Shown in pieces: positions 33,842 through 57,384 of a stretch of 64,000 nucleotides of DNA. The notes under the pieces are model-generated. The model did no database searches and was not told where the DNA came from. It saw nothing but the letters and a program-made list of their open reading frames with translations. Position 1 is the first letter of the stretch. Every line of letters begins with the position of its first letter. The DNA lies in NCBI GenBank assembly GCA_025055675.1, contig JANWWT010000001.1, positions 1 through 64,000 on the forward strand, given 5' to 3'. A program made the translations under genes and the position numbers. The stretch comes from Pseudanabaenaceae cyanobacterium SKYG29. GTDB taxonomy: Bacteria; Cyanobacteriota; Cyanobacteriia; Pseudanabaenales; Pseudanabaenaceae.

Positions 33842-34492
33842 TTAGGGTAGGTAAGTCACTATCTCAGATTTGGCAAAGCGCACCTTGGGACGCATAGCGT
33901 TTTTATCATCAGCCGCCCTGTAGCCCGCCGGGCACAACACCACCGATCGGTAACCCCGCTGCGGCAAGCTCAAAATCTCATCGTACTTCGCAGGTATAAA
34001 CCCCTCCATGGGACAGGTATCCACTCCTAGCATTGCCGCTGCCGTCATAAATTGTCCCAAAGCAATGTAAACCTGTTTCGTCGCCCACTCCTGTAAATTG
34101 ACGGGGGGTTTTTCGATAAAGCCTTTTAACATACTGCCAAAGCTCTCTAACTTTTCCAGGGGAACGCCCTGCACCTCTGCCATCCGCCGCAAATACCGAT
34201 CGGCATATTCCGTATCCAAATTGATCTTGATGGCAAACACCACCAAATGGGAAGCATCCACCACCTGAGTTTGGTTGAAGGAATGGGGGAGGAGTTGCTG
34301 ACGGAGGTCAGGGTCCTGAATGACAAAAAACTGCCAGGGCTGCAGCCCGAAGGAGGAAGGGGCTAAAACCAAACTATCTTCTAAAGCTTCCCAAATTGCC
34401 AGGGGGATTTTACGGGTAGGGTCAAACTTTTTCGTAGCATAACGCCACTTGAGGTTACTGACTAATTGTTGCGGAGAGATAAAGGTGTCCAT
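33842..34492 (-). CDS. Nitroreductase-family NAD(P)H-dependent oxidoreductase
   Basis: A 216-residue FMN enzyme from the ATG at 34492; an in-frame ATG at 34522 would add ten residues and neither has a good ribosome site. Motifs are LKWRYATKKFDPTRK (FMN phosphate contact), EDSLVLAPSSFGLQPWQFFVI and GVDTCPMEGFIPAKYDEIL, the typical NfsB/oxygen-insensitive subgroup. The physiological acceptor is unknown. It is probably co-transcribed with ndhD. Confidence 0.9.
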   Translation of the reverse strand: MDTFISPQQLVSNLKWRYATKKFDPTRKIPLAIWEALEDSLVLAPSSFGLQPWQFFVIQDPDLRQQLLPHSFNQTQVVDASHLVVFAIKINLDTEYADRYLRRMAEVQGVPLEKLESFGSMLKGFIEKPPVNLQEWATKQVYIALGQFMTAAAMLGVDTCPMEGFIPAKYDEILSLPQRGYRSVVLCPAGYRAADDKNAMRPKVRFAKSEIVTYLP

Positions 34493-34645
34493 GCTGTAGA
34501 CCGATCGTTTTTCTCCCTGCATTATAGGAACAAAAGCTTACCCCCTGTCACTCCCCAGTTAGGTAATCCAGGAGAATTAGTCGGCAGAGGGAAACACAAG
34601 ATTAACTGTGCCTAGGCAGTTGCTTCCCACAATTTCCCATACCTA

Positions 34646-34660
34646 ATGCAATAATTGCAT
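34646..34660. promoter_or_regulatory. 7-1-7 palindrome, possible Fur-family operator
   Basis: ATGCAAT-A-ATTGCAT is a perfect 15-bp inverted repeat with a one-base centre, the geometry of Fur and PerR boxes. It lies between an iron-uptake-type porin gene and a nitroreductase gene. The central AATAATT also occurs in the dps operator at 57363-57377. Confidence 0.5.
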
Positions 34661-34751
34661 CAGAGGCGGTTCAAATCAGCAGAGAGTTGAGGCAGAGAAA
34701 ATATCAGCAGGGACTTTCGTGAAGAGGATAAGTTTGGTATGGTTATAGACA

Positions 34752-34792
34752 GCCTAGACCCAAAGGCATGGGGGATAAATTTTCCTCTAGGC
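34752..34792 (+). other. Possible leader stem-loop of the porin mRNA
   Basis: GCCTAGA at 34752-34758 pairs with TCTAGGC at 34786-34792; the 27-base interior can form a second small CCC/GGG hairpin. It could be an mRNA structure only if transcription starts upstream of it. Confidence 0.35.
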
Positions 34793-34857
34793 ACGTCTAT
34801 CTATCTGCTATACCAGCGGGTAGAATAACAAGGTGAGTTACTCTTGAGGAGTGAATG

Positions 34858-36528
34858 ATGGCAAAAAACTGGACATTGGTAGGTGGTTTGGCTGGCACGG
34901 CAGTTCTATTGTCGATGGGAGCACAAGCCCAAATGGTGGGCACACCGGCAAGTAAGATTTTAGAACGCATTAGTGAATTGCAGGGTGGTACACCCAAGGC
35001 AGAGGAAGTGGCACAGGTCACCTCGGTTTCGGAACTGTCTGACGTAAAGCCAACGGATTGGGCATTTTCTGCTCTTCAATCTCTGGTAGAGCGCTATGGC
35101 TGTATCGAGGGCTATCCCGATCGTACCTATAGAGGACAGCGGGCATTGAGTCGCTTTGAGTTTGCCGCGGGTTTGAATGCCTGTTTAGACAAAGTCAATG
35201 AACTGATTGCTGCTGGTTTAGCTGATAAAGTTAGCAAAGACGACTTAGCAAATTTACAACGCCTGCAGGAAGAATTTGCCGCAGAGCTGGCAGCTGTCAA
35301 GGGACGTTTGGACACCCTGGAAGGTAAGGTGAGACGACTGGAAGGGCAGCAATTTTCCACGACGACTAAGCTGTCGGGGGAAGTGATTTTCGCTATTGCA
35401 GGAGGTGGTACGAGCAGCGGTTTCGGACCGAGCTTGGTGGCTAAGAACGGCAAGACGGGCACTCCCTTTACTGATACATCCACTAATGTGATTGCTAGTG
35501 CCAAGGCAGTTCTCAACTTCAATACTTCTTTTACAGGGAACGACTTGCTAGTAACAAGGCTAGAGAGCGGGATCGGTGGTGATGCAGTACAGTCTGGTTT
35601 GGCAGTCAACCCTGCTGGTAACTTGGGCTTTCTGGGATTTGCTACCTTTGGGCAGGACTTTGCTGGGTTAAAGAACACCTTCGCTCTTGGCAAACTGACC
35701 TATGATTTCCCCCTAGGGCGGGACTTCAACGTGACTCTGGGAGCAGCCATGGCTCCCTTTGACTATATCGACTTGAACAGTTTTGCCAACCTTAATTCCA
35801 GTGATTTCTCCAGTACCTTCTTTGTCAACAGCCCCTTTGCCATTTTGGTGGGTAGTGGTTCTGGGGCAGTGTTACGTTGGAATCCCGGTGGCGGCGATAT
35901 TACAATTAAGGCTCTCTATGTAGCGGCCAATGCCAGTGCCCCCACTGCGGGTCTCAATGCTGCTGACATCCGTACCAATCGGGGTCTCACGGGCGATCCC
36001 TACCAGGGCACGTTTGAACTGGAGTTTGCACCCAGGGACAAGGACGGCAATATTAAAAATTTTGCGCTCCGCCTACTATACAACAATGCTTCTGTCAGCA
36101 ATGCCACGATCAACACAGGAGTAGTCAACTTTGAATACGCTTTCTCCAAGAAAGTAGCCATTTTCGGGCGCTATGGCTTCGGCACGATCGATACCCGTGC
36201 CCAACAGATTGCTGCTAGCCAATTCCTGTCCAACTTTGTCAACAAAGATGCAACGGGCAATAGCATCTCTCCGCAAACCTGGATGGCAGGCTTTGCTTTT
36301 CCAGAGTTGTTCCGTCGCAACGATCTGCTGGGGATTGCTGTAGGTCAACCCTTTATTGAGAGTAAAGTCGGTAACACTACTCAGACCAATTTGGAAGTCT
36401 TCTACCGCATTCCTGTGTCTGACAATATCACGATTACTCCCGACTTGCAGTTTATCTTCAACCCCAACAACAACAGCGAGAACAGCACGATAACGATCGG
36501 GTCTCTGCGCACGACCTTTACTTTCTAA
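34858..36528 (+). CDS. Iron-uptake porin (SLH plus OprB-type beta-barrel)
   Basis: A 556-residue outer-membrane protein from the second of two adjacent ATG codons, which fits the GAGGAG ribosome site best. It has a signal peptide with LVGGLAGTAVLLSMGAQAQ. An SLH domain (about residues 55-115: VKPTDWAFSALQSLVERYGC, YPDRTYRGQRALSRFEFAAGLN) binds peptidoglycan. A coiled coil (ELAAVKGRLDTLEGKVRRLE) precedes the beta-barrel, which ends in the aromatic TTFTF. This architecture is the cyanobacterial porin family linked to iron uptake. A strong terminator follows. Confidence 0.93.
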   Translation: MAKNWTLVGGLAGTAVLLSMGAQAQMVGTPASKILERISELQGGTPKAEEVAQVTSVSELSDVKPTDWAFSALQSLVERYGCIEGYPDRTYRGQRALSRFEFAAGLNACLDKVNELIAAGLADKVSKDDLANLQRLQEEFAAELAAVKGRLDTLEGKVRRLEGQQFSTTTKLSGEVIFAIAGGGTSSGFGPSLVAKNGKTGTPFTDTSTNVIASAKAVLNFNTSFTGNDLLVTRLESGIGGDAVQSGLAVNPAGNLGFLGFATFGQDFAGLKNTFALGKLTYDFPLGRDFNVTLGAAMAPFDYIDLNSFANLNSSDFSSTFFVNSPFAILVGSGSGAVLRWNPGGGDITIKALYVAANASAPTAGLNAADIRTNRGLTGDPYQGTFELEFAPRDKDGNIKNFALRLLYNNASVSNATINTGVVNFEYAFSKKVAIFGRYGFGTIDTRAQQIAASQFLSNFVNKDATGNSISPQTWMAGFAFPELFRRNDLLGIAVGQPFIESKVGNTTQTNLEVFYRIPVSDNITITPDLQFIFNPNNNSENSTITIGSLRTTFTF

Positions 36529-57354: not shown

Positions 57355-57384
57355 ATTATACTTCAGAATAATTCTGATTTGCAA
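57355..57384 (-). promoter_or_regulatory. Sigma70-type promoter of dps
   Basis: On the minus strand TTGCAA (57384-57379) and TATAAT (57360-57355) are spaced by 18 bp. The predicted start is about 57348, a leader of under 20 bases. Confidence 0.75.
57363..57377. promoter_or_regulatory. Palindromic operator in the dps promoter (Fur/PerR-type geometry)
   Basis: TCAGAAT-A-ATTCTGA is a perfect 7-1-7 inverted repeat lying entirely between the -35 and -10 hexamers, the position of a repressor site. PerR-type regulators control dps/mrgA in several bacteria. The sequence is not an exact match to the Bacillus PerR box. Confidence 0.65.

Follow-up and report, generated by a model that had tools for sequence, protein, structure and literature searches.

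Do two perfect palindromes with the same centre, one ahead of a porin gene and the other ahead of a dps gene, belong to a single Fur-family regulator? The question is raised by the window (the whole 64,000-nucleotide stretch of DNA analysed here), which is part of a cyanobacterial genome of 2.56 Mb in 18 contigs (G000). The original prediction had attributed both sites to one regulator of this family with a local version of its site. Its description of the sites was accurate: both are perfect 15-bp palindromes of 7-1-7 geometry with an AATAATT centre, they lie where they had been placed, and the genes downstream are iron-related, one encoding a porin recognised by the 'iron uptake porin' model and the other a Dps/ferritin-like protein (Table 1).

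Table 1. Features of the window considered in this work, with the zinc-transporter site of the genus
Feature	Position	Strand	Evidence
Nitroreductase-family gene, divergent from the porin gene	33842..34522	-	PF00881 E 4.5e-26
Palindrome ATGCAATAATTGCAT, probably chance, not a Fur or PerR box	34646..34660	.	Nonconserved; 8 mismatches to the Fur and PerR boxes
SLH-OprB 'iron uptake porin' gene	34855..36528	+	NF033921 E 7e-107; PF04966, PF00395
dps, ferritin-like DNA/iron protection protein, 152 aa	56872..57330	-	PF00210 E 2e-31
-10 element TATAAT, dps promoter (predicted)	57355..57360	-	TTGCAA-18-TATAAT, 10/12 consensus matches
PerR operator of dps (putative)	57363..57377	-	Perfect palindrome; TCAGAATAATTCTGA on the + strand, TCAGAATTATTCTGA on the dps strand
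-35 element TTGCAA, dps promoter (predicted)	57379..57384	-	TTGCAA-18-TATAAT, 10/12 consensus matches
TGATAATCATTATCG site, probable Zur box	1501-1515 of L143, L139 and L141; G000:C1:782127-782141 and matching places in G001 and G002

Based on 40 first-order Markov simulations, the window would hold 4.05 perfect 7-1-7 palindromes with any centre (sd 2.1) and 0.05 with an AATnATT centre, and we observed six and two, respectively. The AATnATT core occurs 928 times in the G000 genome and 23 times in the window, and none of the 136 cores in a 400-kb sample of G000 extends to a perfect 15-bp palindrome. From base composition, ~4.3 perfect AATnATT palindromes are predicted for the 928 cores of the whole genome and 0.11 for the 23 cores of the window; by Poisson arithmetic, a single one in the window would be unremarkable (~10%), whereas a pair would not (~0.5%). 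Since one member of the pair could thus easily be due to chance, it is conservation that decides which of the two it is, and the other evidence probably points to the dps palindrome, not the porin palindrome, as the functional one.

The dps palindrome and its counterpart at perR

In the predicted dps promoter, the -35 and -10 elements are 18 bp apart, and the dps palindrome fills this spacer, a placement that fits promoter occlusion. The product of the gene is also matched by DpsA models, with scores under their curated cut-offs. Sequence TCAGAATnATTCTGA precedes dps in all three genomes of the genus (G000, G001 and G002), is perfect in each of them, and begins 47 to 54 bp ahead of the matched dps start; its central base on the dps strand is T in G000 and G002 and C in G001. 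A promoter at equal spacing was recognised by eye in both sister genomes, with a TATAAT -10 element in G002 and with GTGCAA and TAAAAT in G001. The sequence upstream of dps, again by eye, is alike in G000 and G002 and divergent in G001, where the box is still intact.

This box shows no mismatch to the pattern TMAKAATNATTMTKA and four to the Fur pattern TGATAATNATTATCA. Exact matches to TMAKAATNATTMTKA number two in each genome of the genus, and they are always the dps and perR/prx sites only. When one mismatch is allowed, the genome-wide counts (6, 18 and 5 in G000, G001 and G002) barely exceed those of the reversed control (6, 16 and 3), so only the exact sites are informative. The second exact site leads to perR (G000:C7:13745-14149), which is transcribed divergently from the peroxiredoxin gene prx; TCATAATAATTCTTA, two letters off TCAGAATNATTCTGA, lies between the two genes in all three genomes. 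The match between the dps and perR/prx boxes, like the conservation and position of the dps box and the two palindromes themselves, is read directly from the DNA.

The perR gene is one of three Fur-family genes in G000, which include those for Fur (L001) and a Zur-like paralog (L003). Its product has B. subtilis PerR as its nearest structure in the PDB (2fe3, E 6e-23), and the alignment to 2fe3 places H34, D82, H88, H90 and D101, together with Cys 93, 96, 132 and 135, at positions that we take to be the metal ligands of the B. subtilis protein. An Asp, not a Glu, occupies the position of B. subtilis D104 and the Cys4 zinc site is present, both features being presumably diagnostic of a PerR-type protein. 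Its best NCBIfam match is the PerR model NF052545, which is possibly narrower than PerR overall, with 109 bits against a cut-off of 180; the PerR name therefore rests on the structure match, the residues and the gene context.

The box recurs at perR well beyond the genus. The pattern TMAKAATNATTMTKA was written after 30 perR loci had been viewed; 10 extra loci and 80 loci from named cyanobacterial records were previously unseen. Among 58 genomes of relatives, 40 have a PerR ortholog at E 2e-42 or better, and the other 18, where the best PerR match is no better than 1.8e-13, were left out of the counts. A divergent peroxiredoxin gene accompanies 36 of these 40 orthologs, and a box with at most one mismatch to TMAKAATNATTMTKA lies upstream of 37 of them, being exact in 27 and identical in letters to the dps box in four; three perR loci (L098, L160 and L163) have none at this threshold. 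Inside the PerR reading frames, a control whose base composition is unlike that of intergenic DNA, no such box was found (0/40). The 10 unseen extra loci alone gave a box with at most one mismatch in eight cases, exact in four.

The named records gave similar results. An alignment search confirmed 199 PerR loci, and among the best 80 of these, 71 have a box with at most one mismatch to TMAKAATNATTMTKA within 600 bp upstream, exact in 52, and nine have none at this threshold. The commonest exact box (31/80) is TCAGAATAATTCTGA, i.e., the dps box of the window. The reversed pattern was found at 0/80 of these loci, and the box at 0/80 downstream (80 scanned, 77 over at least 300 bases). A divergent peroxiredoxin was scored at 73/80. 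At least two of the 80 loci (L190 and L191) are apparently from the same genomes as G002 and G001, and some porin and PerR rows come from closely similar genomes, so the counts are of genomes and not of independent events.

The arrangement of the perR/prx promoter was analysed at 72 loci with a plausible divergent peroxiredoxin, L222 being dropped for an impossible negative perR-prx spacing; the 65 with a box of at most one mismatch were examined and the other seven dropped. TATTCT occupies box positions 8-13 on the prx strand in 62 of the 65, which is largely dictated by the box consensus. Independently of the consensus, TTGA is found 17 nt upstream of this hexamer at 55/65 loci and TTGAC at 32/65; the 11 remaining spacings in the range 12 to 23 yield no TTGAC.

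The same arrangement is known from Synechocystis PCC 6803, where perR (slr1738) is likewise divergent from a peroxiredoxin gene (sll1621), and where the mapped sll1621 promoter has a TAttcT -10 element and a TTGACt -35 element 17 nt apart, according to the available text of PMC3293774. The same text reports that this promoter is more active without Slr1738 and shows repression by Slr1738, whose region is described as 33 bp and AT-rich; in this 2012 study, no consensus is given among the presumed targets. In contrast to that report, a 15-bp palindromic consensus emerges here across cyanobacteria, and also at dps. The palindrome appears to fit the sll1621 promoter as mapped in PMC3293774. Speaking against a PerR site at dps, genes for peroxiredoxin and thioredoxin reductase are given as the only non-viral targets of perR in Synechococcus 7002, and dps goes unmentioned in the part of the text that is accessible (PMC4628125). 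A literature search for the exact box strings, covering text other than figures and subscription papers, found no cyanobacterial paper.

Because the dps box matches the consensus of the perR/prx box, is conserved throughout the genus and is placed within the promoter, dps is very probably a target of a PerR of the Slr1738 type. We infer from this binding of PerR at dps, repression there and a response to peroxide. Metal-loaded PerR dimers would bind the 15-bp 7-1-7 box in the 18-bp spacer of the dps promoter and block RNA polymerase; peroxide would oxidise PerR at its iron site, and PerR would leave the DNA. Dps would then be made, take up iron and shield the DNA. A similar box covers the promoter of the divergent prx gene beside perR, and on this basis we propose that iron sequestration is switched along with the removal of peroxide. 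The same logic is found in B. subtilis, where PerR controls the dps-family gene mrgA; the operator of that PerR, TTATAATnATTATAA, has outer arm bases unlike those of TCAGAATnATTCTGA at dps of the window.

Additional PerR targets were sought with TCAGAATNATTCTGA at up to two mismatches, which gave 10, 9 and 6 sites in G000, G001 and G002 against 4, 7 and 2 for the reversed pattern. This mild excess may leave room for further targets, and we claim none. Six of the 25 sites are those of dps and perR/prx; at 18 of the other 19 (G001:C189 was left out), the neighbouring reading frames were read by eye, no gene recurring between genomes and about half of the sites lying within reading frames. The intergenic sites of G000 include one before an ndhD-like gene (L068) and one before a surE-like gene (L164), named by eye, and another G000 site (L074) has no long reading frame within 400 bp. 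A further two-mismatch relative of the dps box, TCAGACTAATGCTGA, has a broken core and is flanked by a different SLH porin gene and a flavoprotein-like gene, also named by eye (L077 at 1501-1515; G000:C1:829404-829418). The one-mismatch site TAATGATCATTATGA, common to G000 and G002 (L135 and L134), falls within a reading frame.

The porin palindrome and the alternative readings

The porin palindrome is located in the intergenic region common to the divergent nitroreductase and porin genes. It shares with the dps box only the AATnATT core, and it has 8 mismatches in 14 positions to both the Fur and the PerR boxes, all four outer positions of each arm being different. No palindrome with this core was found within 700 bp upstream of the porin gene in either sister genome, G002 (whose porin is 91% identical) or G001. 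A BLAST comparison with the sister loci delimited conserved blocks that extend to ~34535 on the nitroreductase side and start at ~34744 on the porin side; the palindrome lies between them in unmatched DNA, ~110 bp from the end of the first block and ~84 bp from the second. Segment 34535-34744 of the window is a junction, and the blocks on its two sides are each conserved in the sister genome, but separately. The nitroreductase and porin genes, neighbours in the window, have their best G002 matches on two different contigs. Relatives of the porin palindrome with up to two mismatches number 2 (itself included), 6 and 5 in G000, G001 and G002, against 4, 6 and 2 for the reversed control; thus the recurrence ahead of other iron or redox genes that the original prediction had put forward as a check did not emerge in G000. 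A part in a sigma-70-like promoter or a terminator was rejected, none having been found; for the promoter, the segment covered was 34520-34870.

The canonical Fur/Zur box is TGATAATnATTATCA. It has in common with both palindromes of the window the 7-1-7 geometry and the AATnATT core, and differs by 4 mismatches from the dps box and by 8 from the porin palindrome. Within 700 bp upstream of the best-matching porin gene, one locus per genome, it was found with at most one mismatch at 17 of 30 loci (region set L041-L062); as a control, the porin reading frames, with their base composition unlike intergenic DNA, never came closer than 4 mismatches. With Fur boxes at 17/30 loci, Fur control of such porins is plausible elsewhere in the family, through that box and not through the palindrome of the window. 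None of the three genomes of the genus has a Fur box before the porin among these 30 loci and within the same 700 bp, and this suggests that Fur control of this porin has been lost or changed in the genus of the window.

Considering these data, binding of both palindromes by one Fur-family regulator, as local versions of one site, is very improbable. The perfect 7-1-7 form, the common AATAATT centre and the position of both sites ahead of iron-related genes speak for it, as do the Fur boxes (at most one mismatch to TGATAATNATTATCA) before the best-matching porin in 17/30 relatives and the TCAGACTAATGCTGA site upstream of a different SLH porin in G000. The four outermost bases of each arm, however, differ between the two palindromes, the core alone occurs at 928 places, and in TCAGACTAATGCTGA even this core is broken; the porin palindrome is missing in G001 and G002 and has fewer two-mismatch sites in G000 than its reversed control. 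A role of the porin palindrome as a Fur or PerR box was rejected on its lack of conservation, its 8 mismatches, the absence of any excess and its position in unmatched DNA. Recognition by an unrelated regulator of the nitroreductase gene or the porin gene, which the perfect 15-bp symmetry and the position between two divergent genes would allow, is unlikely as well, though a little less so: the palindrome is outside both conserved blocks, no sigma-70-like promoter accompanies it, ~4 such palindromes are expected per genome by composition, and the core palindrome is absent within 400 bp upstream of seven other nitroreductase homologues (0/7), on which count its role as the nitroreductase operator was rejected. 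The porin palindrome is most likely a chance resemblance; the lineage-specific gain of a real site is conceivable, the comparison resting on two sister genomes.

A different objection concerns the dps palindrome, which could be a Fur or Zur box and not a PerR box. Its geometry and AATnATT core are those of Fur/Zur boxes, G000 encodes both Fur and the Zur-like paralog, and one paper, by its title, deals with the control of a DpsA homologue by FurA in Anabaena. Set against this are the four mismatches to TGATAATNATTATCA compared with none to the perR/prx consensus, on which the assignment was rejected, and the genomic distribution of TGATAATNATTATCA, which is not enriched over its reversed control (12/13, 14/19 and 8/6 in the three genomes of the genus). 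The sole Fur/Zur-type site noted in all three genomes is TGATAATCATTATCG, which precedes a znuA-like gene. We therefore judge the Fur/Zur reading of the dps palindrome improbable. Taken together, we consider it highly likely both that the dps palindrome is the operator of a Slr1738-type PerR and that the one before the porin is there by chance, in a junction specific to the lineage. Of the original prediction, the part on a Fur-family regulator is strongly supported at dps, where this regulator can be named as a Slr1738-type PerR, and the extension of the same regulator to the porin finds no support.

Two kinds of Fur/Zur-type sites were observed apart from these loci. In each of the genus's three genomes, the TGATAATCATTATCG site immediately precedes a znuA-like gene for a His-rich zinc transporter, and it is probably a Zur box. 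One-mismatch sites in two genomes of the genus (L140 and L144 at 1501-1515; G000:C1:217507 and G002:C4:235666) both precede the same small conserved gene, whose product begins MKVAYxFxHPRCGTYKLGQMILPQ.

Putative operators of dps in other cyanobacteria

Cyanobacteria do not in general have a PerR box at dps. Matches to Dps at E 1e-50 or better were obtained in 47 of 291 genomes, and the best 30, of which 26 were new, were combined with the nine closest dps loci of a previous search into a set of 35. Only the three loci of the genus have an exact PerR box within 600 bp of dps, and the 32 loci outside the genus have none. A second, related box, TCRTWAYGASTATGA, lies upstream of dps with at most one mismatch on either strand at 24/35 loci (L271-L294 and others), a descriptive count given that the motif was written after viewing the same loci; downstream of dps it was found at 0/35. 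In L012, the match begins inside the dps gene. The second box is often embedded in ACTCRTWATGAGTATGA-like sequence where it precedes close homologues of dps in other cyanobacteria. Five genomes additionally have a divergent second dps homologue at most ~1 kb away from a Fur-family gene (G007:C122, G012:C133, G010:C76, G045:C1 and G046:C2).

The second box resembles the operator of another peroxide regulator of the Fur family, FurC (PerR) of Anabaena PCC 7120, for which the available part of PMC10406281 gives the box CAAAATCATAACGACTTTG. Its core, TCATAACGACT, matches the second box before dps in other cyanobacteria and is common to this published box and to two of the sites, which read TCATAACGACTATGA. 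The dps box of the window differs from the FurC box given there in being fully symmetrical, TCAGAATnATTCTGA.

The distribution of regulators is in part consistent with an exchange. Genome G057, which is without a Slr1738-type PerR, carries the second box and encodes three Fur paralogs, one similar to G000 Fur (64%), one to the Zur-like L003 (52%) and a third with 31% at best; by exclusion, this third paralog would be FurC-like, with no close counterpart among the three Fur-family genes of G000. Two incomplete genomes with no match to a Slr1738-type PerR (G007 and G012) have TCGGAATCAGTATGA at dps. Against a simple swap, G040 and G041 possess a Slr1738-type PerR yet have the second box at dps, and G047 possesses this PerR and has neither box there; additionally, an intermediate box, TCATAATGAGTATGA, is found in L282. 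With these exceptions and intermediates, the swap is only a lead. We tentatively propose, with slightly less than even confidence in the whole, that cyanobacterial dps switched peroxide regulators, most of the close loci carrying a FurC-like box and the genus of the window the symmetrical Slr1738-type PerR box, and that a single 15-bp consensus defines the Slr1738-type operator.

As Fur, Zur and PerR boxes share AATnATT and this core is common in the genome, the shared core alone is a poor basis for grouping Fur-family targets. For the operator of Slr1738-type PerR, we offer a compact consensus where the accessible text of PMC3293774 reports none. The PerR box is a known kind of operator, and its assignment to dps in this lineage would be new: through a predicted operator, dps of this cyanobacterial lineage is assigned to the peroxide regulon. 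If the proposed exchange of regulators is true, this would be a case of a conserved stress gene that answers the same signal as before through a new operator and a new repressor.
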